From: Thiolapillus brandeum
Lineage (GTDB): Bacteria; Pseudomonadota; Gammaproteobacteria; Chromatiales; Chromatiaceae
Direction: 5' to 3'
Length of the DNA stretch: 64,000 nucleotides
NCBI RefSeq assembly: GCF_000828615.1
Contig: NZ_AP012273.1
Location: 806,001-870,000, forward strand
Position numbers and translations under genes: made by a program. Within the stretch, counting starts at the first letter, position 1. Every line of letters begins with the position of its first letter. This document shows, piece after piece, positions 8,479 to 33,366 of this stretch. Under the pieces are notes generated by a model, which saw nothing but the letters and a program-made list of their open reading frames with translations, had not been told where the DNA came from and ran no database searches.

Positions 8479-8802
8479 ATTCTGATCTCCCATTCTTGTG
8501 AGGATACGGGCTGTTAGCCCAGGCAACTGTTCGGGTTATGGTCAGAAGAGGGAGAGGCGATCCGTGCTCCTAACGGTGTGTTTCACCAAGGCTGTGTCGA
8601 TCTGCCTCTCCCGAGCCTCAACATACTACTTTTTGGACATACAAGTCTGTCGGGTTTGACCGTTTGAAGCGAAAATCACTGGGGGCGAATTAAATCAGTT
8701 TATTGAGCGAGGCGAATAGCAGGGCTATTTAACGAGTTCGATAAGCTGAGTTAATCGCCATCCAGGGATTTGTAGCCAAACAGCGTTAAATCCGACAGAC
8801 TC
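8479..8802 (-). ncRNA. Candidate bridge-RNA region of the IS110 element
   Basis: This noncoding leader of the IS110 element lies upstream of its transposase. IS110-group elements encode a structured guide (bridge) RNA in this position, transcribed in the same direction as the transposase. The sequence supports structure: GGGAGAGGC at 8550-8558 pairs with GCCTCTCCC at 8604-8612, GATC segments extend the stem, and an inner hairpin GGTG-TGTTT-CACC lies within it. The RNA identity and its ends are inference. The structure itself is visible. Confidence 0.5.
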
Positions 8803-8930
8803 CTAGGAGCAACTGTGTTTTCAAGAAGCCCTATTCTGCTTGGAGGACACGGTATGGTTCGCCACTTCGGAATACGGCGTTGATGATGATCAATAGCTTA
8901 CGCACTGCGGCAATCAGGCTGCCGAAAGGG
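8803..8930 (-). mobile_element. Remnant 3' end of a second, diverged IS110 copy
   Basis: This stretch repeats 4825-4950 in the same orientation with scattered substitutions. On the minus strand it encodes the last residues of an IS110 transposase ([20 protein letters not shown], then QAE and stop), against [16 protein letters not shown] in the larger copy. The rest of that copy is absent. It sits head-to-tail against the left (5') end of the interrupted IS110, so a right-end/left-end junction has formed. Similarity fades after about 8925. Confidence 0.85.
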
Positions 8931-8985
8931 TGTTTTTCAAAAGCTAGTGCTGGTTAATGCGTCGAAGTTCCGTAACAATCCCCCT

Positions 8986-11246: not shown

Positions 11247-11260
11247 GAGCGGTTTTTATC

Positions 11261-12308: not shown

Positions 12309-15300
12309 GTGATCGATATTGGGTTGTTGTGTCGTGGGAATGCCATCAAGACATTGTTCCGGGGCTTGCTGGGTGCGCTGGTGATTTGGACTGCCGCAGT
12401 CAATGCGGATTCGAACATCTGTTACGTGGTTGCCGACAGTGGTGATCAGCTGGAAGAGGTCAACAGAACCGGTGGTGCCCCCATATGGTCGGATATCGGC
12501 GCCACAGGCACTGCGAGCATAGAAGCGGCAGCCATCTATCTGGATGGCATAACGCTGTACGCTGCCGATGCAGATCAATTGGGCATCCTGGATACGGCTA
12601 CAGGTAACTTTACACCCACGTCCAGTACTTTCGGAACCGGCTCCGGTGCGCAAGGCAATATTCCATTTACTGACGTGGATGGATTGGCCTTCGATGCCCT
12701 GACCGGCTATTTCTATGGTTCCGAGCGCCAAGGTGCCGAAGACCTGCTGTTTCGTATCGATCGCACCACTGGCGCACACGTACCTGATGCCTTTGGTCCG
12801 GGGGTGGATTATGTTGTGATTCAGACCCAGGCCGAGTTTGGCGGGCTGAACCTCGATGATATCGACGATATTGCCATCGATCCCCGGGATGGGCAGATGT
12901 ATGCCGTGGCCAATAACGGTGGCACTGCGGACCATTTGGTCAAGGTGGACAAGATGACCGGCGCCGTCACTGATGTGGCGGTGTTCACCAATGCCAGCGG
13001 TGGCGCCAATGTCACCGACATGGAGGGATTGGGTTTCTATAACAATGGCGTGTTCTACGGAACGACCGGAACGTCAAGTACCAGCGGCAACAGCAATTCA
13101 CTCTGGGAAATCGATTTGGCCACGGCGACGGCCACGCGCATTCTGGATATAAATTCCCAGTCCGGTAGATCAGATTACGAAGGGGTTGGCTGCCTGACCG
13201 GCGGTGGAAATCACATCACCGGCAAGGTGTTCGTGGACAACAATCGTGATGGTGTCGATGATGGCGGCAACGGCTGGGCCAACGTGGATGTACAACTGTT
13301 TCGTGACCTGAACGGCAACGGCGTGGTCGATGCAGGGGACTTGCTGGTTCAGACACAAACCACGGCTGCTGACGGTACCTACGATTTTCTCACCGCTTCC
13401 CAGGGGCCATTCGTCGTCAGGCTCGATATCAATACCCTGCCGGCCAATAATTCCTTTACCACGGATAACGTGGAAACAGCGGTGTTTCCCATTCCTCCTT
13501 CCACCTCGCCTACCTTTGGTGCGACGGACTCCGGCAACGACTTTGGCCTGGGACCCGGCGTGAAGACCATTTCGGGTACGGTGTTTGAAGACATTCTGGA
13601 CGGTGACGGCGTACGGGATACCGGCGAACCCGGCCAGGCGGGTGTGACGGTGCACCTGTACGAGGATACGAACAACAATGGCATCGTCGATGCAGGCGAC
13701 CATCTCAGTGGTTCCACGGTGACGGACGCCAACGGCGACTACAGCTTCGTCGCAGGCCCCGGAAATTTTGTGCTGGATGTGGACCCGACGACTCTGCCAT
13801 CAGGCGCCACGCAGACCACGAATCCGCCTGACCATACCCAGACGGCAAGTTTCACCAACAGCACGACGAATGAAACCGACAGCGGCAATGATTTTGGTTT
13901 CACCTTGCCGCCTGGGGTCCTGGGCGTCACCAAGACAAGCAATATTCCCGGAACGGTCAGCTTGGGTGATACCATCGATTACACGATTACAATCACAAAC
14001 AATGGCTCAATAAAGGTGACAAATATCATCGTCACTGATGACTTACCGACGGAAACTAGTTACCAGGCAAACTCAACAGTGGTGCAAGGATATATCCCAA
14101 GCGGATCCGATTACTTCGAAGACGATTTCTCAACCGGAGGATATGGTGGGAACAGTGGAACGCTAAGCTTCTCTGGAGGCTGGGTGGAAACGACGGCGTC
14201 AGGTAGTAATATCCATATCGATAATGATGCCGACTGCCCTGTAAACGGTGATGATTGTCTTGAGATCCATACTTACGCTGTCGGAGACAATATCTATCGG
14301 GAGCTCGACCTAAGCGCCTATAACGCCGCTCAACTCAGCTATGACTTCAATCAAGAAAATTTTGGGTCGGTAGAAGGCATTGCCGTGGAGGTATCCTCAG
14401 ATGGTGGTGCGACCTATACAGTACTGAAGTACTATTCCGGTGCCGCGCTGATCGATAGTGACACGTTCGATATTACGCCGTATATATCGGCCAATACGCG
14501 TATCCGTTTTCGCACGAATGGTCTCGTTAGTGGAGGCAACCTGAATGTCGACAATGTCAGGATTGACGTAAAAACCTTCACGGCTGCAACAAAAGATAAT
14601 GTTGCGGGAGGGGTAAACCCTGATCTGGACAGTGGTGTGCCATCGACGCTGGTAACTGGCAACGATGACTTTGGCTTGGCTCCGGGACAGTCCATGACGG
14701 TAACCTACAGCATTCAAGTCAATGATCCGGTTGCGGCGGCATTTACTGAGGTGAACAATGTGGTGTCGGTCACCAGTGACCAGACGCCGACACCTGTCCA
14801 TGCCATGGTATCCGATCCCATCGCTTACGAATATGGTGACACTCCGGCGGATGGCGATACCATTGCCAATGGTGCGACTGCGGCTTACGGCGATCCATCC
14901 CACATGCTGTCCAGCCTGCTGTACATGGGCTCTGCCGCTGATGGCGCGCCGGATGATGAAGCCGGCACCCAGCATTCTGCCGATGCAACCGGTGATGATG
15001 GCAACGGCACCGACGACGACAATGGCGTGGTGTTCAGTTACAGCGCAGACTATTCCCAGATCACCGCAACCGTCACCTACAACAATACGACGGGGGCGGA
15101 TGCGGTTATCTGTGGCTGGCTGGATGGCGCGGAACAGGCCACAGGACTGGCCGATGGCAGTTTTGATGCCGTGGAAGGCAAGTGCATCACCGTGCCGGAC
15201 AACAGTGGTTCGCCCAACAGTACCGTGAGCTTCACCTGGGACAATTCCGGGGCGGGTAATTACATTCCTGTCGGCGACACCTTTGCGCGCTTCCGTATCA

Positions 15301-16391
15301 GTTCCGATACCACCATGGGCACGGGCGATGCGGCAACCGCAGCCGTGCTTTCCGGAGAGGTCGAGGACTACCAGCTTGCCGGCAGCCGCGACTACGATGA
15401 CCTGCCTGCCGGTTATGGTTCGGTATCCCATGCCCTGCCTCACCTGGGAGATACCACTACCGCTTCTCCCTCGGCAGTATGGCTTGGTGATGCGTCTGGC
15501 AGCCCGGATGCTGAAGCCTCCACGCAGGCTGGTGACGGTGACGACACTGACGGAAACGATGATGAAGCGGGCGTGGCTTTCCGTTCTCCGGGTGGAACCA
15601 ACCACAGCGTTTTTGCCGACGTAACCGTCAATAACAACACGGGTGGCACGGTCACCGTATGTGGCTGGTTTGACGTGCCCTCGGCGGGGGACACAACTCC
15701 ACTGAGCGGTCCCTTTACCGCGAGTGATGGCATCTGCCAGACGGTCAGCACCCAGGGCCAGAGCGTGGTGACGCTAAGCTGGCCGAATATGCCCACGGAC
15801 AAGGCTTACACTACCTATGCGCGCTTCAGGGTCAGTTCCGGTACCCTGACCACGGCGGATTTCACGGGGGATGCCATCGACGGGGAAGTGGAAGGCTATC
15901 CTGTAAACATCGATTTCACGCCAACAGTGGTAACCATTGGCAGTGTGGAACTTGGCGCATTCACCTTGAGCGATTACATGGCCGGGTTGGGCCTATCTGA
16001 CCTGGGGCGTCAGGCTTTGCTGGATATTCTTGCCAAGTGGAGCCCTGAACAGGCCGACGCATTATCCGAGGCGAATCGCGAAGCCATCCTGGAGGCGCTG
16101 GCCGATTACCTTGATCCGGATGGCGATGGCCAGGTTGCGGTGTTGAACTGGGATACCCTGGAAGAACGCGGAACCATTGGTTTCTGGGTGGAGCGCAGGC
16201 AGGACAGCGGTGACTGGGTACAGATCAACCAACGCCTGCTTCCAGGGCTGATTACCGCGCCAATGGGAGGGGAATACCTGCTGGCCGATCCGGAAGCCAA
16301 ACCAGGCAATACCTACCACTACCGATTGATTGAACAGGAGGCCACGGGCAACACCCGTGTTTATGGGCCTTACACCGTGGAGATGCCATGA
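12309..16391 (+). CDS. Large exported protein: beta-propeller, SdrD_B, DUF11 and GEVED domains
   Basis: The protein has 1360 residues. The start is GTG at 12309; no ATG precedes the signal sequence (LFRGLLGALVIWTAAVNA, probable cleavage before DSN). Domains in order: a propeller-like region to about residue 300; two SdrD_B-type calcium-binding repeats (about 301-414 and 419-534, with DGDGVRDTGEPG and NNNGIVDAGD); a DUF11 domain (about 537-830) split by an inserted jelly-roll-like segment (about 596-759); two GEVED domains (about 840-1200, with SGEVEDYQL and DGEVEGYP); and a C-terminal Fn3-like region. It is likely secreted or surface-exposed and may bind ligand or partner proteins. Its stop overlaps the following C25 peptidase start, so the two are probably partners. 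No C-terminal sorting signal is seen. Confidence 0.8.
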   Translation: MIDIGLLCRGNAIKTLFRGLLGALVIWTAAVNADSNICYVVADSGDQLEEVNRTGGAPIWSDIGATGTASIEAAAIYLDGITLYAADADQLGILDTATGNFTPTSSTFGTGSGAQGNIPFTDVDGLAFDALTGYFYGSERQGAEDLLFRIDRTTGAHVPDAFGPGVDYVVIQTQAEFGGLNLDDIDDIAIDPRDGQMYAVANNGGTADHLVKVDKMTGAVTDVAVFTNASGGANVTDMEGLGFYNNGVFYGTTGTSSTSGNSNSLWEIDLATATATRILDINSQSGRSDYEGVGCLTGGGNHITGKVFVDNNRDGVDDGGNGWANVDVQLFRDLNGNGVVDAGDLLVQTQTTAADGTYDFLTASQGPFVVRLDINTLPANNSFTTDNVETAVFPIPPSTSPTFGATDSGNDFGLGPGVKTISGTVFEDILDGDGVRDTGEPGQAGVTVHLYEDTNNNGIVDAGDHLSGSTVTDANGDYSFVAGPGNFVLDVDPTTLPSGATQTTNPPDHTQTASFTNSTTNETDSGNDFGFTLPPGVLGVTKTSNIPGTVSLGDTIDYTITITNNGSIKVTNIIVTDDLPTETSYQANSTVVQGYIPSGSDYFEDDFSTGGYGGNSGTLSFSGGWVETTASGSNIHIDNDADCPVNGDDCLEIHTYAVGDNIYRELDLSAYNAAQLSYDFNQENFGSVEGIAVEVSSDGGATYTVLKYYSGAALIDSDTFDITPYISANTRIRFRTNGLVSGGNLNVDNVRIDVKTFTAATKDNVAGGVNPDLDSGVPSTLVTGNDDFGLAPGQSMTVTYSIQVNDPVAAAFTEVNNVVSVTSDQTPTPVHAMVSDPIAYEYGDTPADGDTIANGATAAYGDPSHMLSSLLYMGSAADGAPDDEAGTQHSADATGDDGNGTDDDNGVVFSYSADYSQITATVTYNNTTGADAVICGWLDGAEQATGLADGSFDAVEGKCITVPDNSGSPNSTVSFTWDNSGAGNYIPVGDTFARFRISSDTTMGTGDAATAAVLSGEVEDYQLAGSRDYDDLPAGYGSVSHALPHLGDTTTASPSAVWLGDASGSPDAEASTQAGDGDDTDGNDDEAGVAFRSPGGTNHSVFADVTVNNNTGGTVTVCGWFDVPSAGDTTPLSGPFTASDGICQTVSTQGQSVVTLSWPNMPTDKAYTTYARFRVSSGTLTTADFTGDAIDGEVEGYPVNIDFTPTVVTIGSVELGAFTLSDYMAGLGLSDLGRQALLDILAKWSPEQADALSEANREAILEALADYLDPDGDGQVAVLNWDTLEERGTIGFWVERRQDSGDWVQINQRLLPGLITAPMGGEYLLADPEAKPGNTYHYRLIEQEATGNTRVYGPYTVEMP

Positions 16392-18733
16392 TGAAGAAGC
16401 TGGGAATAATTGGAAGCATAACCATCCTGGCCGGCATGATGTTGCTTTGGGGTGAAGCCAGCGCGACAACGGACGCTCTTTCAAAGAATACGGGCTGGGG
16501 TGCGTGGCAGGCCTTGTCCGGCGGATTCATGGCTCGGCGGAAACAGCCGCCGGCTGCTGAGTTGCCTCGCAAGCTTCGTGCCCAGGCCGTCAAGGCGGCG
16601 CCAGGCGCCCAAACCAACACAAACCTGAATATCGGTCCGTCCGCTAATAAGGGTGTCTGGCTCAGGGTTCGTGGAGAAGGACTGGTTGCGGTGGTCATTG
16701 CCGATGCCGCATCCGTCATGGGCTTTCCCGCAAGCGCATTGAGGCAGCTTGCCGCTAAAGGCAGGTTGTCCCTGCTGAACCGGGGAAACCCCGTATCCTG
16801 GTATTACGATGCGGACGATGACCGTATTTTGTTTGCGGCCCAGGCCCTGGACAGTTTCTATACCGATGAAAATGCCTACTATCTTTCGCGGGATTCCCGG
16901 GATGCCAGACCCATGTCCATTGCGATGGCGCAGAGCAGCGATACCGTGCCTGCAGACAACCAGGGAATGAGCTTCGTCGATACCATCAGGTTCGAGGAAG
17001 AACCTGATTTCATGTACGCTACCTGGTCTGTACGCGATGAGCCGGATGCGGATTACTGGTTCTGGGATTACCTGTTCGGCGGTAGCAGGGATCAGATCAG
17101 TGTCAACCTGGAACTGCCTGATCCTGCTCAGGAGGGCAATGTTCAGATGAACGTGCACCTGCGCGGCTTTACCGATACGGACGTCCCTAACGAACACAAG
17201 ATCCATGCCCGGTTGCAGGATACGAATGTCAGCCAGATGGCGAGCTTCGACGGTTTCGGTGAAATTGTGCTGTCACTAAGTTTTGATGGCAGCATGCTCA
17301 AAGCCGACGGTTCCAATACCTTGCTTCTGACTTCGGTGCATGCACCAGACCAGGCGCCCGGTGAGTGGCTGGATGCCGTGGAGGTTCGTTATCTGCGGAA
17401 GCCTGTGGCCCGTGACGGGCGTCTTTGGGTACACGGTGGGTCTACCGGCATGCAAACGGTACGGGGTTTCAACAGTGATGATATCCTGGTTATTGAATCG
17501 CCGGCTGGTGATGCGAGTTTGCGCCGTGATGCCGCTATCGAACCCGACGGTGATGGTGGCTGGATAGTCAGTTTTCAGACCCTGGCCGGTACAGATTATC
17601 TTGTGGCGCAGGCGGATTCGGCCCTGCAGCCGAATATCGTGCCAGACTACCGGGATGGACGGCGCCTTGCAGACCTGGATGCGGACTACCTGATTATCGC
17701 GCCCCGGACTTTTTCCGGGACTGCGGGAAAGCTTCAGCGTTACCATGAGCAAATTTCCAGGAGGCAATCCGGCAAAAGCAAAGCACAGATCGCCTGGCTG
17801 GAAGATATCTATGCCGAGTTCAGTGATGGCATTGAAGATCCCCACGCGATTACGCGCTTCATGGACAGTGTCCTTGCCAGCCGATGGAACCGGCAGCCCA
17901 TGCAGGTGGTGCTGGTAGGCAAGGGCAGCCTGGATCACAAGAACCGCATGGGATATGGCGACAGCTTCCTGCCCGTGCTCCTGGATGCCACCCCGTGGGC
18001 ATTGGCTGCTTCCGATGCCCGTTTGTTAGCCGGATCGCGTGCCCCGGGATTTGCCATTGGCCGTTTACCGATCACCAGCGATGCTGAAGGTATGGCATAC
18101 GTAGACAAGTTGGCCGGTTACCAGGCTTCTTCTGAAGAAACCGCTTCCCGTGCAGTGCTGGTGGCGGACAATCCGGATGATGCAGGTGATTTTGTTCAGA
18201 ACTCGGATCTTCTGGCGGATCGGCTGGTTTTCGAACTGGGCATGTCGGATGTCGAAAAACTCTACCATCCCGATGACCCGGTGAGAGACCACTTTATTCA
18301 GTCTTCCACCTGGGAATCGGTCTATGTCAATTATGATGGACATGGTTCTACGACTCAGCTGGGGGATCGTAGGGAAAAGTTTATGACTGCTGGTGATGCA
18401 GCTATGCTCAACAACAGCAGCTATCCGATATTTACCGCGCTTACTTGTGCTGCTGGCGATGACAGTCAACCCGGCATGCGCTCGCTGGCCAGCAGTCTGG
18501 TGTTGAATCCCCGCGGGGGTGCCATTGCTTCACTGGCGCCGACGGGTTTGTCCCTCGATGCAGACGCCCAGGTGTTGGGCAATGCTTTTATAGAGCACTT
18601 GTTTATAGATGGCCGGGACATCGGTGATGCGGTTCGAGGCGCTCAGCAGGAGACGGCGGGGAAAATCTCCTATTTCATGTCAAGGATCTACTCGGTGATC
18701 GGCGACCCTGCACTCAAGGTGCGCAGAAAGTAA
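16388..18733 (+). CDS. Exported C25 (gingipain-like) cysteine peptidase
   Basis: This 781-residue protein has a signal peptide (IIGSITILAGMMLLWGEASA). Its C-terminal half is a caspase-fold C25 peptidase: YVNYDGHGSTTQLG gives the catalytic His652 and FTALTCAAGDDS gives Cys687. It ends with the family motif VIGDPALKV. The N-terminal half is beta-rich and aligns with the middle of the 1595-residue protein downstream. C25 enzymes cleave after basic residues in the known gingipains, but specificity here is unknown. The start ATGATG overlaps the upstream stop, so the GEVED protein and the peptidase are translationally coupled. The second ATG (16391) is equally possible. Confidence 0.85.
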   Translation: MMKKLGIIGSITILAGMMLLWGEASATTDALSKNTGWGAWQALSGGFMARRKQPPAAELPRKLRAQAVKAAPGAQTNTNLNIGPSANKGVWLRVRGEGLVAVVIADAASVMGFPASALRQLAAKGRLSLLNRGNPVSWYYDADDDRILFAAQALDSFYTDENAYYLSRDSRDARPMSIAMAQSSDTVPADNQGMSFVDTIRFEEEPDFMYATWSVRDEPDADYWFWDYLFGGSRDQISVNLELPDPAQEGNVQMNVHLRGFTDTDVPNEHKIHARLQDTNVSQMASFDGFGEIVLSLSFDGSMLKADGSNTLLLTSVHAPDQAPGEWLDAVEVRYLRKPVARDGRLWVHGGSTGMQTVRGFNSDDILVIESPAGDASLRRDAAIEPDGDGGWIVSFQTLAGTDYLVAQADSALQPNIVPDYRDGRRLADLDADYLIIAPRTFSGTAGKLQRYHEQISRRQSGKSKAQIAWLEDIYAEFSDGIEDPHAITRFMDSVLASRWNRQPMQVVLVGKGSLDHKNRMGYGDSFLPVLLDATPWALAASDARLLAGSRAPGFAIGRLPITSDAEGMAYVDKLAGYQASSEETASRAVLVADNPDDAGDFVQNSDLLADRLVFELGMSDVEKLYHPDDPVRDHFIQSSTWESVYVNYDGHGSTTQLGDRREKFMTAGDAAMLNNSSYPIFTALTCAAGDDSQPGMRSLASSLVLNPRGGAIASLAPTGLSLDADAQVLGNAFIEHLFIDGRDIGDAVRGAQQETAGKISYFMSRIYSVIGDPALKVRRK

Positions 18734-18796
18734 ATAGAGGCTTGAAAGTGCAGATTTCGAGTGCTTGTTATAGCGAAACGGAAACCAGGTAAAGAG

Positions 18797-19876: not shown

Positions 19877-22800
19877 ATGTTGAAAATCCAAAAAAAATTA
19901 TCAGATATCTCCATAGCGCCCGGGCGCTCTCTGTGCTGCGCAATTGGCCTGCTGATGATTCTTCTGGCGGGCGTTCCAACTGCCGCAGTGGCAGCCGGCG
20001 ATATTTTGTGGAGTACCGAGGTAACCACCACCCCCATCAACACCCCTGCGCCGGCCACGGATAACTTTGTCCAGGATGGTGTCTCTGTCTCTATCGATTA
20101 CATTTTTCCGGATGCGCCAAATCCGGCTTCCTATCCAACAAATTATTTTGAAACCAATCCGGGTACACTGGGAGCGGAAGCCGGGATTCTCCTCTTGGGC
20201 ATGGACGCCGTGGCTGGCGCCAGCGGTGGCAATACCGAGTGTACGCGACTGCGATTCCATTTTTCGCCCGCGGTTTCCGATCTGAGATTTCCTTTGCTGG
20301 ATGCCGATTATGGAAGCTGGCGTGATATGGCCCTGGTCCGCGCCACCTATAACGGTGTACAGGTACCCGGAACGGGCACCATCGTGGATCCCTCGCCCAC
20401 GGTTCAGGCCGGTACACCGGCAGGCGTGACCCAGTACACTTGCGCGGATATACAAAACGAGTTTGGCAGTGGTTTGTGCTTTACGGGACATACGGACAAC
20501 GCTAGTGCTACGGAAACCCGCGGCAACGTGGATCTTGCCTTTACCGGATTTGTCGATCAGCTGGAGATCAGCTATTGTGAATCGGATAACCCCGACAATA
20601 ACGGGCAAATACTAGGGGTTGGCGACATGTTCTGGGGGGACAACGCCGCGGATAACAGCAAGGACTATGGCGATGCGCCCGCCAGCTACGGTGATGCCGC
20701 ACATGACGTGTCCGATCTTTCCTACCTGGAAACCGTTACCGTCGACAATGTGGATGAAGCCTGGCAGACAGTGGCCCTGCGCAACACTTACACCAATCCG
20801 GTCATCGCCTGTACCTATAATCTGCCATCCACCGCAGATGCGCCCGCCGTGGTGCGTATCCGCAATGCCAGCGCCACGAGCTTTGAGCTGCGGGCGCAAA
20901 ACCCCGGGGATGGTAGTGCCGTGACGCCTTCCAACGTGAATTGTCTGGTTGCGGAGCAAGGTCTGCATACCTTGCCGGATGGCAGAATATTTGAAGCTCA
21001 CCGGGTGGCGTCCGGCATTGTGGATCACGCGACTTCTACCTGGACTGGACAGACCGCCGTGGTGAACGGCACTTATACCAATCCTGTTGTGCTGGGGCAG
21101 GTGATGACCTTCAATGATGTCCGTTGGAGTGCGTTCTGGAGTTACGACTGTAGCAGTCGCCAGGATCCGCCCGCCGCCGGCGCGGGTAATATCTGCATCG
21201 GCAAGCATGTGGGGGAAGATCCGGACATTACCCGGGCGTCTGAAGACCTGGGCTATTTTATTATCGAAGCAGGCACAGGATCATTCGGTGGCATATCCTA
21301 TGAAGCGGCGTTGGGCGGCGATACTGTTCTGGGGGTGGATAACGCACCGCCTTACAGCTATGCGTTGAGCCAGACCTTTGATTTCGCAGTGGCCAGCCAG
21401 GCCGCCATGGATGGCAACAATGGCGGTTGGGCCCAGTTATTTGGCGCCAGCCCGGTAGGCGCCACTCTCGACCTGGTGATTGATGAAGACCAGATTGGAG
21501 ATGCTGAAAGATGGCATACGAGTGAGCAAGTGGGATATTGGGCGTTCACTAAATCGCAATTCAATACGCCTTATATCGGAGCGCTGCAAGGTGACACGGA
21601 AGCCGGCACCCAAAGCACCGCGGATGCCGATGGTGATGATAACAACGGCGTGGATGACGAAGAAGGCGTTGCCTTCCGTTCCCCGGCCGGTGGCGATCGT
21701 GCGGAAGTCTATGCTGATGTGGCGGTGGTCAATGATAGTGGCGGTGACGCCTATATCTGTGCCTGGCTGGATCGTTGGACGGACGGGGGCGGCACGGCCG
21801 TGATCGATGGCAGTTTCGATGCAGCAGATATCGCGGACACGCCTGCCCAGGCTTGCCAGACGGTGGCTGATAACGGCGGTGTGGCCACCACGGTCACTTT
21901 CCATTGGACGGGTATGCCCAATGTATCCGGGTTTACTTATGCGCGCTTCCGCACCTGTACTAACCCGTCAGATTGCAGCTCGCCTGCGACCGTTGCCGGT
22001 GACGGTGAAGTGGAAGACTACCGCATCGATTTTGATTTTACGCCCACCAGCGCCGTAGTGGATGGTTTCCGGGTGAGCTGGCGTCGCGTGGGGGATCTGA
22101 AGCGCGAAGAGCCTGGCCTGTCGGCGGCCTTGTCTGACCTGGATGATGCCACAAGCGTGGCCGTGGTAAGCTGGGAAACCCTGCAGGAACATGGCACCCT
22201 GGGCTTCCAGGTGGAACGGCGCCAGGATTCCGGTGATTGGCAGGCGGTGGACGCGGGCCGTTTCCTCCCTGGCCTGATCACCGCTCCTTTGGGTGGGGAA
22301 TATCTGTTGCTGGATGATGGTGTCAAGGCGGGAGAGCACTGGACTTACCGCCTCACGGAGAAAGAAGTCTGGGGCAGTGAACGTCACTACGGACCCTGGG
22401 AGGTGACCGTGGGGGATGCACGGCAAACTCTTGAGTCCGCAGCCCGGCTTGAACAATCGGAAGCCAGGGAAAATTGGCATCCCTGGCGTGAGCTGATGCC
22501 CGGTTACATGGGCCGGGCCCGGGAATCCGCGCCGCCTTCGGAGCGTACAACGGATTCGCAGGCGTTATCCGAGCCTGTTACCAGTGGCGCCGCCACCCGG
22601 TTGCGCCTGCGCACGCATGAAGAAGGGCTGCATCGTGTTGACTTGGCGTCGCTGGCTGCACTTTTGACTGTGCCCGAAGATCAGCTCGTGACGCAACTGT
22701 TATCGGGTGAATGGGGGCTATACCGCGGGGGGCGCTTGCTGTCCTATTTTTACGCGCCAGGAGAGCAGGCGCTGTATTTCGCCGGGGAGCCCTACCGGAA

Positions 22801-24664
22801 TATCGATACGGTGGAAAACGTTTACCAGTTGCGTCCGGGGGCGGGGCATGCCATGTCCCTGCTCATGAGTACCGAGGAGATGGCACCGGTTGAGCCGGGC
22901 AGCTTCCGTGACAGCCTGCATTTTGAAGAAGAAAACTGGCTGCTGACCTATGTGCATCAGGATGAAAATGCTGACTATGGTTATTGGGACTATATCTATA
23001 CGCTCAACAAGCCCACGGCAGACTTGCATATCCAGGTGCCCGGACCTGCGGCATCTGCGGTGTCTTCCGGTCGTCTCCGGGTGACTTTGCGTGGCCAGAG
23101 CGACCTGGTGCCCGGGAGCGATCATCGGGCTCGTGTTTACCTCAATGACCAGCCCCTGGCCGGGGAAGTGGAATGGAACGGCAATGAGCAGGCCGTACTG
23201 AATGTATCTTTCGATCAGGCCCAGCTGCTGTCGGGAAATACCCTCGGCGATATGCTTGACGTAAAGATCACCGTGGAAGGTGAAGCTGCCAATGGCGCGG
23301 AGTACAGCCTGTTCTTTATCGAAAGCGTGGATATCGATTATGAACGCCGCTATCAGGCCCATGGGGGCAATCTGTGGATGCATGGGGCGGCGCCCGGGGT
23401 GGTGACGGTAACGGGTTTTGATTCACAAAATATCCGCGTCATCGAGAACCCGCTGGCCACGGAACCGGTTTGGTATTCATCTCCCAGCGTCACGCCGGAT
23501 GGCAATGGCGGATGGCAGGTGAGCTTCATGAGTCACGGCGGTGATTATCTTCTCAGCAGCAACCCCATGACGCCCAGGGTCGAAGCCGACGAGCCTTCCT
23601 CCCTCTCCGATTGGGCGAACCAGGCGGATTATCTGATCATCGCGCCCCGCGCCCTGTCCCGGGGCGCGCAGGCCCTGGCGGCCTACCGGCGGGGGCAGTT
23701 TGGCAGGGTGAAGGTGGTCTGGTTGCAGGACATCTACGACGAGTTCAGTTATGGCCGTACCGACAGTGGTGCCATCCAGGCTTTCCTGAAACAGGTAAAA
23801 CAGCGCTGGAGACAGGTTCCGCAGTATGTAGTGCTGGCCGGTCGCGGTACCCTGGATCACGCCAATCGCCGCGGATATGGTGAGAGCCTGATTCCCCTGC
23901 GCATGGCCGCCACGCCTTGGGGACTGGCTCCCAGTGACAACAGGTACGCGGATGTTGACGGTGATCATTTGCCCGATTTCATTCTCGGGCGTATTGCCGT
24001 GTCCCAGGATGCACAGCTATTGTCTTACGTGGACAAGCTTGGAAATTATGAAACTGTAGCGCCGGGTGCCTGGGCGACAACGGCCGCGGTGGTTGCCGAC
24101 AATCCTGACGAGGCCGGCGATTTCCATGCCAATGCGGAAACCTTGAGCACATTGCTGGAAAACGAGGCTTATAACGTCGACAAACTCTATTATCCGGAAC
24201 AGCCCGTAGGCAGTTTGCTGCGCAGTAACTGGGCATCCGGCAGTTATGGCTACGTGACCTATGACGGCCACGGCAGCGCCACCATGATGGGCACGCGTTC
24301 CGAGGATTTTCTGTCTGCGGCTGCGGTGGAAAATCTGGACAATGGTGATTATCTGCCGGTATTTACCGCCTTCAGCTGTGCCGTGGGCGACAGCAGTTAT
24401 CCGGGGCAACTGAGCCTGAGTGATACCCTGACCCTCAAGGCCGGCGGTGGGGCCATTGCCGGGTTTGTTCCCAGCGGGCTTTCCCTGGATCAATCCGCAA
24501 ACCTGCTCAGCCTTTATTTTGGTAAAGCCCTGCTGGGTGAGGGGATGAGCGTTGGTGAAGCCGCACGCACCAGTTTGCAGTCGGCTGAACAGCAGGGAGT
24601 GGGTGCATTCATGCTGGACATATACGGCATATCAGGCGATCCTGCCGTGGAAATGCCACATTGA
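19877..24664 (+). CDS. Giant exported GEVED-C25 peptidase fusion
   Basis: The protein has 1595 residues. A signal peptide (LCCAIGLLMILLAGVPTAAV) leads into an N-terminal beta domain. A GEVED domain starts at DYGDAPASYGDA (about 261), is interrupted by an inserted lectin-like segment (about 285-568, with NTYTNPVIACTY), and resumes to DGEVEDYRIDFDFTPT. A region homologous to the C-terminus of the 1360-residue protein follows (ERRQDSGDW, LPGLITAPLGGEYLL). The final part is a full C25 peptidase homologous to the 781-residue protein, with His1465 in YDGHGSATMMG, Cys1501 in FTAFSCAVGDSS and terminal ISGDPAVEM. It corresponds to a fusion of the two upstream genes. The small precursor gene starts 13 bases later. 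Confidence 0.85.
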   Translation: MLKIQKKLSDISIAPGRSLCCAIGLLMILLAGVPTAAVAAGDILWSTEVTTTPINTPAPATDNFVQDGVSVSIDYIFPDAPNPASYPTNYFETNPGTLGAEAGILLLGMDAVAGASGGNTECTRLRFHFSPAVSDLRFPLLDADYGSWRDMALVRATYNGVQVPGTGTIVDPSPTVQAGTPAGVTQYTCADIQNEFGSGLCFTGHTDNASATETRGNVDLAFTGFVDQLEISYCESDNPDNNGQILGVGDMFWGDNAADNSKDYGDAPASYGDAAHDVSDLSYLETVTVDNVDEAWQTVALRNTYTNPVIACTYNLPSTADAPAVVRIRNASATSFELRAQNPGDGSAVTPSNVNCLVAEQGLHTLPDGRIFEAHRVASGIVDHATSTWTGQTAVVNGTYTNPVVLGQVMTFNDVRWSAFWSYDCSSRQDPPAAGAGNICIGKHVGEDPDITRASEDLGYFIIEAGTGSFGGISYEAALGGDTVLGVDNAPPYSYALSQTFDFAVASQAAMDGNNGGWAQLFGASPVGATLDLVIDEDQIGDAERWHTSEQVGYWAFTKSQFNTPYIGALQGDTEAGTQSTADADGDDNNGVDDEEGVAFRSPAGGDRAEVYADVAVVNDSGGDAYICAWLDRWTDGGGTAVIDGSFDAADIADTPAQACQTVADNGGVATTVTFHWTGMPNVSGFTYARFRTCTNPSDCSSPATVAGDGEVEDYRIDFDFTPTSAVVDGFRVSWRRVGDLKREEPGLSAALSDLDDATSVAVVSWETLQEHGTLGFQVERRQDSGDWQAVDAGRFLPGLITAPLGGEYLLLDDGVKAGEHWTYRLTEKEVWGSERHYGPWEVTVGDARQTLESAARLEQSEARENWHPWRELMPGYMGRARESAPPSERTTDSQALSEPVTSGAATRLRLRTHEEGLHRVDLASLAALLTVPEDQLVTQLLSGEWGLYRGGRLLSYFYAPGEQALYFAGEPYRNIDTVENVYQLRPGAGHAMSLLMSTEEMAPVEPGSFRDSLHFEEENWLLTYVHQDENADYGYWDYIYTLNKPTADLHIQVPGPAASAVSSGRLRVTLRGQSDLVPGSDHRARVYLNDQPLAGEVEWNGNEQAVLNVSFDQAQLLSGNTLGDMLDVKITVEGEAANGAEYSLFFIESVDIDYERRYQAHGGNLWMHGAAPGVVTVTGFDSQNIRVIENPLATEPVWYSSPSVTPDGNGGWQVSFMSHGGDYLLSSNPMTPRVEADEPSSLSDWANQADYLIIAPRALSRGAQALAAYRRGQFGRVKVVWLQDIYDEFSYGRTDSGAIQAFLKQVKQRWRQVPQYVVLAGRGTLDHANRRGYGESLIPLRMAATPWGLAPSDNRYADVDGDHLPDFILGRIAVSQDAQLLSYVDKLGNYETVAPGAWATTAAVVADNPDEAGDFHANAETLSTLLENEAYNVDKLYYPEQPVGSLLRSNWASGSYGYVTYDGHGSATMMGTRSEDFLSAAAVENLDNGDYLPVFTAFSCAVGDSSYPGQLSLSDTLTLKAGGGAIAGFVPSGLSLDQSANLLSLYFGKALLGEGMSVGEAARTSLQSAEQQGVGAFMLDIYGISGDPAVEMPH

Positions 24665-24677: not shown

Positions 24678-24851
24678 ATGAGTGAGAAAGAGCAACAGGC
24701 AAACAATGAGAAAACTGCACAGAAAAAAACCTGGGAAGCGCCGCGTATCCTGAGCGATGAACCCCTGGAAGCCGCCGCCGCCACCTGTAACGGGGCTGGG
24801 GGGTATGGGAAGTCGGTGCCGCAATGTAACCCCCAGACTCTGGGTTCCTGA
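24678..24851 (+). CDS. Putative RiPP precursor peptide, 57 aa
   Basis: The short reading frame encodes a polar leader (MSEKEQQANNEKTAQKK), then TWEAPRILSDEPLEAAAA, then a small-residue and Cys-containing core TCNGAGGYGKSVPQCNPQTL ending in Gly-Ser. W19-x-x-P22-x-I/L resembles the aromatic-x-x-P-x-L recognition motif of lasso-type and related leaders bound by PqqD-like RRE domains. The core has two cysteines (37 and 50) and a C-terminal Ser57. It begins 13 bases after the giant C25 gene and ends 3 bases before the HprK-like kinase gene. Its position, size and leader/core contrast support a modified-peptide precursor. The modification is not known. GAGAG at 24663-24667 may serve as the ribosome site. 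Confidence 0.72.
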   Translation: MSEKEQQANNEKTAQKKTWEAPRILSDEPLEAAAATCNGAGGYGKSVPQCNPQTLGS

Positions 24852-24854
24852 GCC

Positions 24855-25787
24855 TTGCAGAATGTCCAAAGGTTGAATGAACAAACGTCAGCCTGCGGCG
24901 GCGAACCCTGGGGGAACAGGGAACTGGTTCTGGAATTCGCGGCTACGGTATTCCGCTTTCAGGGCTTGAGCGATGCGCAGGTATTTCGGATCGAACAGCG
25001 TTACGGACGTGCCATTCCGGAACAGCACACCCGTGTAGAGGCCATTCAGACCGGGGTTTGCAAAGGTGATCTGCCGGTTCATGACGATCCCCTGCGTTAC
25101 AGCGAGAACAACCTCTATACGCCACTTACGCGGCAGGATGCCCGGGGATTGGATGTGGAAGGTTATGGTTTCCAGGCGCGCATTGATCTGAAACCGGGTT
25201 TTCATGGCCAGCTGTGGGGGGAGAATGAGATACTGCTGGCCCGTTCCATCGTGTTCGAAAACTACCTTCGCACGGTTGCCGCTTACGCCGCCTTGCAGCG
25301 CCGGGGCCTGTTTTTGCACAGTGCCGGAATCGTCGTCGATAACCAGGCATGGTTGTTTCTTGGGCGCTCCGGCGCCGGCAAGACAACCCTTTCCCGGCTG
25401 GCCCTGAAGCAGGGTGCTGACATACTCAGCGATGATGCCAACATGCTGCTGCCGGATGCGGCGGGGCGTTATCATGCCGGCCCTGTTCCTTTCGCAGGTG
25501 AACTGGGTGATGTCAACAAGGATGCCCGGCAGGATTATCCCGTGGCAGGTCTGCTCTGGCTCGAACAGGATGACTGCCTGGAATGCGCGGACCTGCCACC
25601 CGCGCAGCAACTGGCGCGCACCATGGCCTGCTGTCCGGTGGTGAACGTGGATCCCTTCCGTGGTGAAAAACTGCTGGATGTGATCGAAAACCTTTTGAAA
25701 CAGGTGCCCATGCGGGTGCTGCATTTCCGAAAAACCGACCCGTTTGAGGCGATACTCAAAGCAATTGGTGTGAAGACTGATGCATGA
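24855..25787 (+). CDS. HPr kinase-like peptide/protein kinase (HprK-related)
   Basis: The protein has 310 residues. The C-terminal half carries the HprK-type P-loop GRSGAGKTT (residues 170-178, Lys176) and the following LSDDANMLLPD, where HprK has its catalytic Asp region. The N-terminal half resembles that of the HprK-related proteins found next to PqqD-like genes (the HPr-rel-A type as I recall the naming). Relatives in lasso-peptide clusters phosphorylate a C-terminal serine of the precursor, and the adjacent peptide here ends in Ser. The start is a TTG at 24855, with another TTG at 24873 possible; neither has a strong ribosome site, so coupling to the precursor is likely. It overlaps the PqqD gene by 8 bases. 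Confidence 0.8.
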   Translation: MQNVQRLNEQTSACGGEPWGNRELVLEFAATVFRFQGLSDAQVFRIEQRYGRAIPEQHTRVEAIQTGVCKGDLPVHDDPLRYSENNLYTPLTRQDARGLDVEGYGFQARIDLKPGFHGQLWGENEILLARSIVFENYLRTVAAYAALQRRGLFLHSAGIVVDNQAWLFLGRSGAGKTTLSRLALKQGADILSDDANMLLPDAAGRYHAGPVPFAGELGDVNKDARQDYPVAGLLWLEQDDCLECADLPPAQQLARTMACCPVVNVDPFRGEKLLDVIENLLKQVPMRVLHFRKTDPFEAILKAIGVKTDA

Positions 25788-26046
25788 AGAAGACAACTTG
25801 AACCTGCACCCGGATATCCTGTTTCGCGCAGTGCCTCCGGAAGGCGTATTGGTGGATCAGCGGGTGCCTTCCGTGATGGTCGTCAATGCGACGGGCCTGC
25901 GCATGCTGGAGATGATTCGTGAGAAGGGTTCCCGAAAGGCGGTGATTCTTGCCCTGGCCGACGAGTATGAGGCGCTAGCAGAGACCATAAGTGCCGATGT
26001 GGATGCCTTTCTCGACGACCTGCGCAGCCGGGACATGCTCAGCTGA
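25780..26046 (+). CDS. PqqD-like peptide chaperone (RRE domain)
   Basis: This 88-residue protein fits the PqqD/RRE fold: a beta-hairpin N-terminus (LFRAVPPEGVLVDQR, then SVMVVNATGLRML) and a C-terminal three-helix wing (ALADEYEALAETISADVDAF). PqqD-like domains bind the leader of a ribosomal peptide and present it to a modifying enzyme, usually radical SAM. It overlaps the kinase gene upstream by 8 bases and the radical SAM gene by one base (TGATG), so the three proteins are made from one message. Expected partner: the 57-residue peptide at 24678. Confidence 0.85.
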   Translation: MHEEDNLNLHPDILFRAVPPEGVLVDQRVPSVMVVNATGLRMLEMIREKGSRKAVILALADEYEALAETISADVDAFLDDLRSRDMLS

Positions 26047-27047
26047 TGTACCACTCGGTCATCAGGCGCCGCATCCGCGAACAGGGGCTGCTGCACGGCA
26101 TCATGTTGGAACTGACCTATGCCTGCAACCTGGATTGCTTCTTTTGTTACAACGACAAACAAGCTCAGGGTAAACCGCTGGCCCTCGAACAATATCGGCA
26201 ACTGCTGGATGATTTGGCGGCCATGAATGTCATGTTCGTCACCTTTACCGGCGGCGAACCCTTGCTCTATCCTCGCTTCTTTGAGCTGGCGCGTATGGCC
26301 CGGGACAGGGGATTTGCCATCCGCATCAAGACCAACGGCCATGCCGTGCGTGGCGCTACCGCAGCGAGATTGCGGGAAGAGATCAATCCCCTATTGGTGG
26401 AAATGAGTCTGCACGGCGCCAGGGCGGAAACCCATGACCGCCAGACCCGGGTGCCCGGGAGTTTTGACAGGCTGGTGCAAAATATCCGCGAGATGCATGA
26501 ACTTGACCTGCGGCCCGGGCTGGTGAGTACGCCTACCGCCTGGAACGAGAAGGAACTGGAAGCCATGTACGAACTGGCCCGGGAACTCCATGTTCCCCTG
26601 CGTTTTCAGGGGCCGGTTGGCCCCAGGGACAACGGGGACCAGACCCCTCTGGAGATACAGCCGTCACGCGACAGCTGGACGCATCTCCTGGAGCTGGGCA
26701 AGCGTTATCAGCAGGAACCTCACGCCACGGCATTTTCCGCCCCTTTCGAAGAAACCAGCGATGGGGAAGACAATGAACGGGCCTGGTGTGGTGCAGGCAG
26801 CGAGGAAATCATCGTCGATCCCTTTGGGAATGTCTTTCCCTGCCTGCATTTGCGCTGGTCTGCCGGGAATTTGCATGAGCAGGGCATTCGGGAGATATGG
26901 CGCAATGCCCAGGCTTTCCCGGCCGCCAGGAATCTGTCTGCGGAAACCGCCGATCAGTTGCAGGATAAAGAACCCCGGCAACTCGGCGCCCCTTTGTTCT
27001 GTCCCGGTCTCGCGCTGAAGGGCTGCGGCGGCTGTGAAAACAGCTGA
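26046..27047 (+). CDS. Radical SAM/SPASM peptide-modifying enzyme
   Basis: The protein has 333 residues. The radical SAM cluster motif is C27-x3-C31-x2-C34 (YACNLDCFFC), followed by the SAM-binding FTGGEPLLYP. The C-terminal part is SPASM-like: WCGAGSEEIIVDPFGNVFPC, LHLRWSAGNL, then FCPG and GCGGC supply cysteines for an auxiliary FeS cluster. Such enzymes, with PqqD partners, make C-C, C-S or C-O crosslinks or epimerise residues in ribosomal peptides. The specific reaction cannot be read. It is translationally coupled to the PqqD-like gene. A convergent peptidase gene ends 4 bases beyond its stop. Confidence 0.9.
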   Translation: MYHSVIRRRIREQGLLHGIMLELTYACNLDCFFCYNDKQAQGKPLALEQYRQLLDDLAAMNVMFVTFTGGEPLLYPRFFELARMARDRGFAIRIKTNGHAVRGATAARLREEINPLLVEMSLHGARAETHDRQTRVPGSFDRLVQNIREMHELDLRPGLVSTPTAWNEKELEAMYELARELHVPLRFQGPVGPRDNGDQTPLEIQPSRDSWTHLLELGKRYQQEPHATAFSAPFEETSDGEDNERAWCGAGSEEIIVDPFGNVFPCLHLRWSAGNLHEQGIREIWRNAQAFPAARNLSAETADQLQDKEPRQLGAPLFCPGLALKGCGGCENS

Positions 27048-27050
27048 GCC

Positions 27051-27455
27051 TTAGGGCCTCCTGATGCCCCGTTTCCATAACCAGGTAGCCGCATAAACCA
27101 CGAATCCTGTCCTGCAGTGCAGGCGTTGCCGGGGGGAAACATGCTGTGACAGTTTTCCCAAGATCTGCTCCCGGCTGATACTTGCATCAGGATTCCGGCT
27201 GTTGTCCGCGCGGGTAAGATAACGTCTTTCACCCGCGCGGCGAAAGCTGCCCAGCATTCGGTGCGCGATCAGGTTTCCCCGGTTGTCAGCGAATACCAGG
27301 ATATCTCCCGCCCGATAGCTGCGAGCTCGCTTTACTTCGACCTTCTGTCCATCCTCGAGCATGGGAGCCATACAATGGCCCTTGATGCGGATATGCAGGG
27401 TCTCGCCGGAGAATGCCTTGAGATTTTCCAGTGTTTTGGATGGCAACATTTTCAT
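27051..27455 (-). CDS. S24/S26-type peptidase with Cys in place of the catalytic Ser
   Basis: The 134-residue protein has the fold signature of S24/S26 (LexA/signal-peptidase-like) enzymes: IRIKGHCMAPMLEDGQKV and YRAGDILVFADNRGNLIAHR. In the usual G-x-S-M-x-P motif the Ser is Cys28. The general base position carries His65, as in Sec11-type signal peptidases, rather than Lys. A hydrophobic C-terminal stretch (GFVVYAATWLW) may contact the membrane. It lies 6 bases downstream of oppF on the same strand and converges with the radical SAM gene. It may be the leader peptidase of the peptide system or simply the last gene of the opp operon. S24/S26 proteins also occur near HprK/PqqD genes elsewhere. 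Confidence 0.75.
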   Translation of the reverse strand: MKMLPSKTLENLKAFSGETLHIRIKGHCMAPMLEDGQKVEVKRARSYRAGDILVFADNRGNLIAHRMLGSFRRAGERRYLTRADNSRNPDASISREQILGKLSQHVSPRQRLHCRTGFVVYAATWLWKRGIRRP

Positions 27456-27461: not shown

Positions 27462-28445
27462 TTACGCCACCTCTGGAAAATGGCACATGATCTGATGACC
27501 ATTGCCCGCATCATGAACCGGCGGTTCCTGTTTGGCGCATAATGCCGTGGCCTGGGGACAGCGGGTGCGGAAGCTGCAGCCACTGGGAGGGTCCAGGGGA
27601 GAAGGCAGATCTCCCTGCAGCGGGGTGAATGTCTTGTTGCGTTCGATCTGCGGGTCGGGAATGGGGATGGCCTGGATGAGGGCGCGGGTGTAGGGATGCC
27701 CGGGGTTTCGGTACAGGTCATCCCGGGTGGCGGTTTCCACCACCTTGCCCAGGTACATGACCATGACCCGGTGGCTGATCTGCTTGACCACGCTCAGATC
27801 ATGGGCGATGAACAGCATGGACAGTTCCATTTCCTTCTGCAGATCCATGAGCAGGTTGATGATTTGTGCCTGTATGGAAACGTCCAGGGCGCTGACGGGC
27901 TCGTCGCAGATCAGCAGTTTGGGGCGCAGAATCAATGCCCGGGCGATGCCAATGCGCTGGCATTGGCCGCCGGAAAACTCATGGGGATAGCGGTTGATCT
28001 GGTTGGGCAGCAGGCCCACGCGTTCCATGATTTGCCGCACACGCTGTTTGCGTTCCTTTTTGCCAAGTCGGGATTCGAATGCCTGCATGGGTTCGGTGAT
28101 GATTTCGCTGACGGTCATGCGCGGGTCCAGGGAGGCAAGGGGGTCCTGGAACACGATCTGCATCCGCTGGCGATAACTGCGCAGCTGCCGGGTGTTCAGC
28201 CCGGAAATGTTTTGTCCCTCAAGGATCACATCACCCGATGTGGGAGATACCAGTCCCAGGATGCCCCGGGCCAGGGTGGATTTACCGCAACCGGATTCAC
28301 CCACGATACCCAGGGTCTCACCAGGTGCCAGTGACAGGCTGACACCATCCACGGCCTTGAGCAAACGGTGACCGGGGCGCAGCAGGCCTTCGCCGGGAAG
28401 CCTGAAATGTACCTTGAGGTCGTCTACCTGCAGCAGCTCAGTCAT
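27462..28445 (-). CDS. oppF: Oligopeptide ABC transporter ATP-binding protein
   Basis: This 327-residue ATPase has Walker A GIVGESGCGKSTLARGIL, the signature EFSGGQCQRIGIARAL and Walker B LLICDEPVSALD. The C-terminal oligopeptide-transporter extension contains the cysteines of GCSFRTRCPQA that bind a FeS cluster in some relatives. It energises peptide import through the OppBC channel. The ATG at 28445 matches the family start MTELLQVDDLKV. It lies 24 bases after oppD in the same operon. Confidence 0.92.
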   Translation of the reverse strand: MTELLQVDDLKVHFRLPGEGLLRPGHRLLKAVDGVSLSLAPGETLGIVGESGCGKSTLARGILGLVSPTSGDVILEGQNISGLNTRQLRSYRQRMQIVFQDPLASLDPRMTVSEIITEPMQAFESRLGKKERKQRVRQIMERVGLLPNQINRYPHEFSGGQCQRIGIARALILRPKLLICDEPVSALDVSIQAQIINLLMDLQKEMELSMLFIAHDLSVVKQISHRVMVMYLGKVVETATRDDLYRNPGHPYTRALIQAIPIPDPQIERNKTFTPLQGDLPSPLDPPSGCSFRTRCPQATALCAKQEPPVHDAGNGHQIMCHFPEVA

Positions 28446-28469
28446 GATGGTTTTTCCGGGCGACAAGCA

Positions 28470-29435
28470 TCATTGGGCGGCCTCCAGGTGACAGGCGTTG
28501 AGATGCCCGGGACTCACTTCACGCAGTGCAGGCTGCCGGGTAGTGCAGATCGCCAGCCGTTCCTCGCAGCGGTCGGCAAAAGCGCAGCCCGGCGGCAGCT
28601 GCAGCAGATTGGGGGGATTGCCGGGAATACTGTGCAGTTGCATGCTGCCAGCCAGGTCGAGGCGGGGTACGGACTGCAGCAGTCCCCGGGTGTAGGGGTG
28701 GCGGGGGTGCTGAAACAGCTCGAATACCGGCGCATATTCGCAGATGCGCCCCCCGTACATGACCATGACATTGTCGCTGATACCCGCGATGACTCCCAGG
28801 TCGTGGGTGATCATGACAATGCTCATGCCGAACTCCTGCTGCAGTTCGTTCATGAGCTGGATGATCTGGGCCTGTACCGTGACATCCAGAGCGGTGGTGG
28901 GCTCGTCGGCAATGAGCAGATCCGGCTGGCAAAGCAGTGCCATGGCGATCATCACCCGCTGGCGCATGCCCCCGGAGAACTCATGGGGGTAACGTTTCAG
29001 CCGGTTGGCTGCGTCCGGGATATGTACCGCATCGAGCATTTCGGTGCTGCGTTGGCGGGCGGCCCGGCGGTCCAGGCCCTGGTGCAGCATCAGCACCTCG
29101 GTCATCTGCCGCTCGATAGTGAGGTAGGGGTTCAGGCAGGTCATGGGATCCTGGAAGATCATGCCGATACGGTTGCCGCGGATGCGGTTGATCTCTCCGG
29201 GCTTCATGCCCACCAGTTCCTGACCCTGGAAGCGGATGCTGCCTTCGGCGCGGCCGTTGCTGGCCAGAAGGTTGATGATGCTCAGCACCAGCTGGCTCTT
29301 GCCCGAACCGGACTCGCCCACCACCCCCAGGGTTTCGCCTTTTTCCAGGCTGAAGGACAGGTCATTGACGGCATAGACCTCGCCGTCGTTGGTGTGGAAC
29401 ACCGTACGTAGATTCTCGACTTCCAGCAACGGCAT
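28470..29435 (-). CDS. oppD: Oligopeptide ABC transporter ATP-binding protein
   Basis: This 321-residue ATPase shows Walker [19 protein letters not shown], the signature [16 protein letters not shown], Walker [13 protein letters not shown], and the C-terminal oligopeptide domain with [15 protein letters not shown]. It pairs with the following ATPase as the heterodimeric motor of the peptide importer. It starts one base after the oppC stop region, so it is tightly coupled. Confidence 0.92.
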
Positions 29436-29436
29436 C

Positions 29437-33356: not shown

Positions 33357-33366
33357 GATGTTTTCC

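Follow-up and report, generated by a model that had tools for sequence, protein, structure and literature searches.

A candidate RiPP cassette that joins a radical SAM enzyme and an HprK-like kinase, encoded beside C25 proteins in Thiolapillus brandeum and other bacteria

A 64,000-nucleotide stretch of the 3.15-Mb genome of Thiolapillus brandeum (C1:806001-870000; this whole stretch is the "window") encodes, between positions 24678 and 27455, a short peptide together with a kinase-like protein, a PqqD-like protein, a radical S-adenosylmethionine (SAM) enzyme and a peptidase, immediately behind the gene of a giant protein with a C25 peptidase domain. This raises the question of what is made from the peptide and whether the C25 protein has a part in it. 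It is fairly probable that these genes form a previously undescribed cassette for a ribosomally synthesized and post-translationally modified peptide (RiPP), in which a radical SAM modification guided by a RiPP recognition element (RRE) would be combined with the phosphorylation of a C-terminal Ser or Thr, and that its product acts together with a secreted C25 protein.

The cassette in the window and its recurrence

The first gene (24678..24851, plus strand) encodes the putative precursor of 57 amino acids (aa), with the leader WEAPRIL...EPLEAAAAT, the core CNGAGGYGKSVPQCNPQTLGS and a C-terminal Ser; it matched no NCBIfam or Pfam family at an expectation value (E) of 1, and homologues were found at 92 further sites. 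It is followed on the same strand by the genes for a kinase of the HprK/phosphoenolpyruvate carboxykinase (PEPCK) fold (24855..25787; TTG start, exact start uncertain), which was assigned from family models, invariant residues and fold and may phosphorylate the C-terminal Ser; for a stand-alone PqqD-type RRE (25780..26046); and for a putative radical SAM maturase (26046..27047). A candidate leader peptidase of the S24/S26 type is encoded on the minus strand (27051..27455), with Cys replacing the usual Ser (GHCMAP) and with HR. The Pfam scan of the window yielded PqqD (E 6.4e-13), Radical_SAM (5.6e-21), SPASM (2.9e-8), Peptidase_S24 (5.4e-6) and Peptidase_C25 (7.5e-59). An earlier reading of the letters of this stretch (the "sequence-only reading") had placed all of these cassette genes; the open reading frames (ORFs) are there and Pfam agrees, also for the S24/S26-like gene on the opposite strand, which it had seen as a peptidase-like gene facing the others. 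Its description of the genes as tightly packed and overlapping applies to the frames of the kinase and RRE genes (8-nt overlap) and of the RRE and radical SAM genes (1-nt overlap), but not to the precursor and kinase genes, which are separated by 3 nt.

When the radical SAM protein alone was used as query, 30 loci were fetched from named genomes, which were those of Gammaproteobacteria (including Thiocapsa and Competibacteraceae) and Acidobacteriota/Thermoanaerobaculia, two Myxococcota contigs and a few others. The precursor, kinase, RRE and radical SAM genes were found together in 23 of them, and the S24/S26-like peptidase gene in many; several of the other seven loci are cut by contig ends, and two are weak or partial matches. 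Gene orders and strands differ among the loci, and the co-occurrence of the cassette genes is not due to chance. The sequence-only reading had staked its proposal on the small peptide being conserved beside the trio of kinase, RRE and radical SAM genes, and this arrangement recurs in distant hosts. Among 55 related genomes, the query found 14 at E 1e-20 and 12, including its own, at E <1e-50; at E 1e-30, none of 72,556 plasmid records gave a match. The closest named loci were those of Sedimenticola sp. with 81-82% identity. The version in other Sedimenticola genomes (46-49% identity) is no nearer to that of the window than many Acidobacteriota versions (44-48%), which fits horizontal transfer.

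An independent search was done with a profile of the precursor (A1), and since up to 16 first-look candidates were scored per genome, the resulting counts are lower bounds. At least 51 of 396 Acidobacteriota genomes were positive, indicating a common cassette, and at least 1 of 398 Pseudomonadota genomes, namely that of the window. The 51 loci fetched by the profile contained genes for the radical SAM enzyme (32), the RRE (29), the kinase (20), the S24/S26-like peptidase (7) and C25 proteins (28). The profile scan covered 90 loci including the window, 85 of which had a precursor match, with a total of 93 precursor sites. At the 55 sites flanked on both sides by >4.5 kb, a radical SAM gene was located within 6 kb at 40, an RRE gene at 37, a kinase gene at 31 and an S24/S26-like peptidase gene at 16. 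Of 28 genomes, nearly all of them picked because no kinase or radical SAM gene was close to a precursor site, 28 had a kinase homologue (E 1e-15) and 27 had one of the radical SAM enzyme (E 1e-30), although not always on the contig of the precursor, and some low-scoring ones, for instance in genome G269, could be paralogues.

Because greedy ORF calling misnamed some genes in high-GC loci, the counts rest on frame-level profile searches. Before counting, L001-L014 were excluded because they duplicate or shorten loci that were refetched with longer flanks, L053-L073 and L084-L108 as shortened copies of places covered by other loci, L080 and L109 as duplicates of L019 and L027, respectively, and L041 and L042 because their matches were weak or truncated. 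L018, L026, L029, L033, L034, L036 and L040 were superseded by the longer L077, L079, L081, L078, L082, L076 and L083, while L074 and L075 represent the second site in each of two genomes. Locus L044, which replaced L005, does not extend to the L005 precursor, and this precursor is missing from the 93 sites; L161-L164 were added later and stand outside these counts. Two loci contain a second pair of PqqD-like and HprK-like genes close to the cassette (L021:9170-12324 and L023:9396-11150), which is perhaps a sister peptide system; that in L021 is followed by a gene for a nucleotidyltransferase (NTP_transf_5) that is uncharacterised and by a C25 gene.

The C-terminal residue at the 93 precursor sites is Ser in 90 cases, Thr in 3 and no other, which corresponds to 86 Ser-ending and 3 Thr-ending segments among 89 distinct ones. 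A leader motif [YW]xxP is present at 92 of the sites and exactly two Cys at 90, with Lys between the two Cys at 84 and Lys or Arg at 89; the first 34 precursors collected (32 distinct) all ended with Ser and contained C..K..C. The spacing of the two Cys varies widely, and the core differs in length and sequence. A conserved leader and C-terminus around a variable core, encoded beside modification enzymes, is the pattern of a RiPP cassette, and the peptide is almost certainly a substrate of the RRE plus the radical SAM enzyme.

Two precursor copies per locus were found in L077, L078, L079, L137, L146, L148, L151 and L157. In L161-L164, the precursor gene is positioned straight behind a gene for a small secreted protein without a Pfam domain, and genes for secreted TSP_3 proteins, in L161 also for an FG-GAP repeat protein, are located between the C25 and precursor genes, so that the peptide may have partners besides C25.

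Predicted modification and leader removal

The chemical steps, which we infer from the conserved genes and motifs, would begin with the binding of the [YW]xxP leader by the PqqD-type RRE, which would offer the core to two enzymes. The window RRE, with its match to PF05402, has the NCBIfam model of the lasso PqqD chaperone (NF033530) as its best match (E 4.4e-9), at 36.4 bits and below the cut-off of 70. The radical SAM enzyme as the first of the two would oxidatively modify the core with its two Cys, most likely by forming a cross-link based on Cys. It has the motif CxxxCxxC and, in 31 sequences, C248, C266 and C319 as the sole later invariant Cys. A full SPASM domain has seven conserved Cys holding two auxiliary clusters, so that three invariant Cys indicate a twitch-like auxiliary domain instead. 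The "SPASM" enzyme of the sequence-only reading is accordingly borne out by a Pfam match above the cut-off but not by the full set of Cys.

What this enzyme does to the peptide has to be judged from its relatives. Among the best 25 of 91 NCBIfam families, the mycofactocin maturase scored highest (114.1 bits; cut-off 265), followed by AhbD and NirJ2, and no cut-off for sactipeptide, ranthipeptide, PQQ (pyrroloquinoline quinone) or mycofactocin enzymes was reached. The structural model, with a predicted local distance difference test (pLDDT) value of 88.5, resembles SkfB first and BlsE second, and also PqqE, SuiB and a sactipeptide thioether enzyme, with PqqE as the closest solved sequence. This resemblance makes a cross-link likely and a decarboxylation possible, and a cross-link at Cys is slightly favored. 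Alternatively, the radical SAM enzyme may act at the C-terminus by oxidative decarboxylation, perhaps with the kinase, and the two Cys may form a disulfide after export. MftC of the mycofactocin pathway catalyzes an oxidative decarboxylation at a peptide C-terminus, and the top NCBIfam scores, the decarboxylase BlsE as second fold match, the Ser or Thr end kept at all 93 sites and a Cys spacing as variable as a disulfide could allow would all agree with such a reaction. However, none of the listed NCBIfam scores reaches its curated cut-off, a RiPP maturase is the first fold match, with SuiB and the thioether enzyme also high, and the exact number of two Cys has been retained at nearly all sites, so that action at the C-terminus is considered unlikely.

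The second enzyme, the HprK-like kinase, is predicted to place a phosphate on the C-terminal Ser, or on Thr in a few relatives. Its matches to family models are weak, with 35.1 bits for ScmC (the best NCBIfam match; cut-off 125) and 23 bits for HprK_rel_B. An AlphaFold model from a 28-row alignment reached a pLDDT of 90, and PEPCK and HprK/P structures appeared among the 50 Foldseek matches listed, with probabilities of 0.99-1.00 and a best E of 4.7e-6. The residues H155, S172, G175, K176, T178 and D193 are invariant. Lasso peptide kinases have the residues H...GK(S/T)...D according to PMC10368454, and the kinase family of the window keeps these residues together with the HprK/PEPCK fold. PMC10368454 and PMC8498205 describe HprK-like kinases that phosphorylate the C-terminal Ser of lasso precursors, and BsfK, which phosphorylates Ser3 and is stimulated by the RRE BsfB1. 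By analogy, it is probable that the kinase phosphorylates the C-terminal Ser or Thr.

Removal of the leader would require a cleavage immediately in front of the first Cys, for which the Cys variant of an S24/S26-like peptidase is the candidate in the window type. Among 31 distinct sequences of these peptidases, 24 have Cys at the nucleophile position and 6 have Ser, with 1 unclear, and all 31 have HR; a few of the Ser-type sequences look like distant and possibly unrelated relatives. The Cys in the GxCMxP motif may indicate a Cys/His variant of signal-peptidase-like enzymes. The Acidobacteriota-type leader has E-x-[R/K]-A before the first Cys, the S24/S26-like gene is mostly not nearby, and it is perhaps the C25 protein or a further protease that cuts the leader. 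At the radical SAM sites with Arg or Lys at the junction, the S24/S26-like gene was present at 2 and not present at 25, compared to 26 and 17, respectively, at those without (p 1e-5), which fits two different ways of leader removal.

The C25 protein as neighbor and possible partner

The 1595-aa C25 protein (19877..24664, plus strand) ends 13 nt upstream of the precursor gene, as had been noted before. It has a signal-peptide-like N-terminus, as judged by eye, and a C-terminal C25 domain (PF01364). Since the protein ends three residues past this domain, it lacks an added C-terminal sorting domain. The catalytic His225 and Cys261 are invariant in 22 domains, as in PorU and the gingipains, and the closest solved sequence is PorU (6za2), followed by the gingipains. 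A second C25 protein of 781 aa is encoded at 16388..18733 on the plus strand, and the two C25 matches of the genome are both inside this island, to which the sequence-only reading had rightly guessed that the C25 and peptide genes both belong.

Of the 93 sites, 52 have a C25 reading frame no more than 300 bp from the precursor, on the same strand in about equal parts upstream and downstream, and convergent in four cases; whether it is upstream or downstream is unsure for a few overlapping frames such as that in L141. Such a frame is present at 31 of the 55 well-flanked sites. Because frames run from stop to stop, the distances to the beginning of C25 frames are minimum values. At 22 sites with the precursor first, the first start codon of the C25 gene near or after the precursor gave gaps of -58 to 194 nt. 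L077 and L078 contain the tandem arrangement C25-precursor-C25-precursor.

The presence of both modules is also associated. Of the 12 genomes strongly positive for the radical SAM enzyme, including that of the window, 10 had C25 domains, compared to 1 of the 43 others, a total of 11 of the 55 relatives; in the two positive genomes without C25 (G014 and G023), the contig ends at the cassette. For 14 of 15 genomes in the genus of the window organism, C25 and the cassette were either both present or both absent. C25 domains were found in 136 of 396 Acidobacteriota genomes, namely in 48 of the 51 precursor-positive and 88 of the 345 precursor-negative ones (Fisher p 7e-22, uncorrected for kinship). 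At loci with an adjacent C25 gene, distances of the C25 domains paralleled those of the radical SAM enzymes (Mantel r 0.867, n=42) and of the kinases (r 0.911, n=30), compared to r values versus the radical SAM enzyme of 0.715 for the RRE (n=61) and 0.797 for the kinase (n=46); each of the four values, all uncorrected for species kinship, was reached by 0 of 2000 permutations.

From this association and parallel divergence, we infer that C25 is very probably a functional partner of the peptide; the mature product would serve the adjacently encoded secreted C25 protein as substrate, ligand or inhibitor. A more specific, tentative proposal is a two-part secreted system of a giant caspase-fold C25 peptidase or transpeptidase and a dedicated cross-linked, Ser/Thr-phosphorylated RiPP, with one peptide per C25 protein as in the tandem pairs, which may be used as a substrate for surface attachment or as an inhibitor. 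If true, this would be a RiPP serving or controlling a protease of its own producer. The pairing with PorU/gingipain-like peptidases beyond the Bacteroidota gives a testable role to large uncharacterised surface proteins.

Several observations weigh against the reading of a modified peptide that works with C25. The genes for the radical SAM enzyme, RRE and kinase were all within 6 kb at just 29 of the 55 well-flanked sites, the stretch contained neither a radical SAM nor a C25 gene at 13, and no C25 frame was within 300 bp at 24. No C25 was found at either Myxococcota locus, and in L161-L164 the precursor gene, behind its small secreted-protein gene, is 9-11 kb from the C25 domain. No conserved exporter was recognized among the clustered neighbors, which were called roughly. 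The Lys between the Cys is not invariant, profile A1 was built from Ser-ending peptides and mildly favors Ser-ending relatives, the association of the leader junction with the peptidase may be due to shared ancestry or contig ends, and the nearest radical SAM models and folds include a decarboxylase besides the maturases SkfB and SuiB. Finally, the column of Asp163 of RgpB, which we take to be the acidic S1 residue, contains acidic and other residues in an uncertain part of the alignment, so that cleavage at Arg or Lys by these C25 proteins is unsupported. The Lys between the Cys as a P1 bait for a Lys-gingipain-like C25 protein was dropped as a main claim, because this column is not conserved and Lys is missing at 9 of the 93 sites.

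Some of these observations would also be expected if the C25 genes were passengers in surface-protein islands that gain and lose both modules, with the peptide as a separate secreted signal or antimicrobial. Precursor genes also stand behind other secreted-protein genes, C25 domains are present in 88 of the 345 precursor-negative Acidobacteriota genomes, and L023, L081 and L116 have all three enzymes and ample flank with no C25 nearby. The adjacency in three arrangements, the tandem pairs, the parallel divergence (r 0.87 and 0.91) and the agreement within the genus argue against such a loose connection, which makes passengers an improbable explanation. Even less probable is that the peptide gives rise to a redox cofactor or an electron carrier, like PQQ or mycofactocin, instead of a protease partner. 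The PqqD-type RRE would fit, as would the radical SAM enzyme, whose nearest NCBIfam match among those listed is MftC and whose nearest solved sequence is PqqE. A core varying in length and sequence is unexpected for a cofactor, however, the tie to secreted C25 proteins and the tandem pairs speak against it, and a peptide kinase is not known from either the PQQ or the mycofactocin pathway.

Relation to described pathways and other genes of the window

The sequence-only reading had seen no clear counterpart of this gene set, which has to be corrected because two described systems share parts with it. Phosphorylated lasso clusters (paeninodin, ThcoK/SyanK types and Bsf) have a YxxPxL leader, a stand-alone RRE (B1), an HprK-like kinase with H...GK(S/T)...DD and a C-terminal Ser as the phosphosite, except for Ser3 in Bsf. 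The peptides studied here have the related leader motif and a B1-type RRE match below the cut-off; the window cassette differs by its radical SAM enzyme, S24/S26-like peptidase and C25 neighbor, and no lasso cyclase was found beside the precursor. A phosphorylated lasso peptide with cyclase and B2 protease encoded elsewhere is highly improbable despite the leader, the lasso-type PqqD match, the kinase and the C-terminal Ser, since an Asn-synthase-like protein of the window as query (E 1e-5, with the 90 loci covered and B2 and whole genomes not searched) matched just two ORFs, itself at about 21 kb from the precursor and one at the edge of L160. This protein scored highest with the XrtA/PEP-CTERM amidotransferase model (554.6 bits; cut-off 816.9), compared to 217.8 bits for the lasso cyclase (cut-off 525), and passes the cut-off for general Asn synthases.

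The second system, the SynChlorMet cassette, was compared through NCBIfam models and names alone. These include ScmC as the best match of the kinase, the PqqD-related ScmD and the radical SAM proteins ScmE and ScmF. The window cassette differs in having one radical SAM gene and scores far below the cut-offs, with 81.1 of 400 bits for ScmF and 59.2 of 400 for ScmE in addition to the ScmC value given above; the window RRE did not match ScmD at E 1, and no paper on SynChlorMet was found in the open-licence literature. Compared to the SPASM RiPP maturases SkfB, SuiB and PqqE, the radical SAM fold, the three-Cys core motif and a Cys-containing core peptide are shared, whereas the twitch-like auxiliary domain, the separate RRE, the added kinase and a cross-link that is predicted are different. 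Compared to PorU and the gingipains, the C25 proteins do not conserve the column of the RgpB S1 Asp as far as the uncertain alignment there shows, the window protein lacks an added sorting domain, and a RiPP cassette is encoded together with them.

Among the matches listed, no NCBIfam cut-off was reached by the radical SAM enzyme, kinase or RRE of the window, or by the radical SAM enzyme and kinase of Acidobacteriota. No title or abstract opening describing the cassette was among the literature matches listed, which cover open-licence papers, and kinase, HPr, S24 and Acidobacteri terms were not found in PMC7470986 and PMC12710340. HprK-type phosphorylation of a C-terminal Ser or Thr and a radical SAM modification would come together under one RRE, and no single described peptide pathway with both was found. 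This chemistry is directly testable, as the small size of the precursor, the kinase and the radical SAM enzyme permits their co-expression.

Upstream in the same island, a 1360-aa surface-type protein with SdrD_B, DUF11 and GEVED matches is encoded at 12309..16391 on the plus strand. A 313-aa protein with a weak match to a LapA-type retention module is encoded between the two C25 genes (18761-19702). Downstream of the cassette, ABC transporter genes (27462-31238; oligopeptide type, named by eye) are followed by a gene for an M3 peptidase (oligopeptidase; 31239-33416); an M3 peptidase gene is also located immediately before the kinase gene in L029 (2715-4742), and this proximity to the cassette may be chance. 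The beginning of the window (1-12010) is occupied by a polysaccharide-type cluster with genes for glycosyltransferases, the Asn-synthase-like protein, EpsG, NTP_transf_5 and DUF218, which is split by an IS66 transposase gene at 5923-7824.

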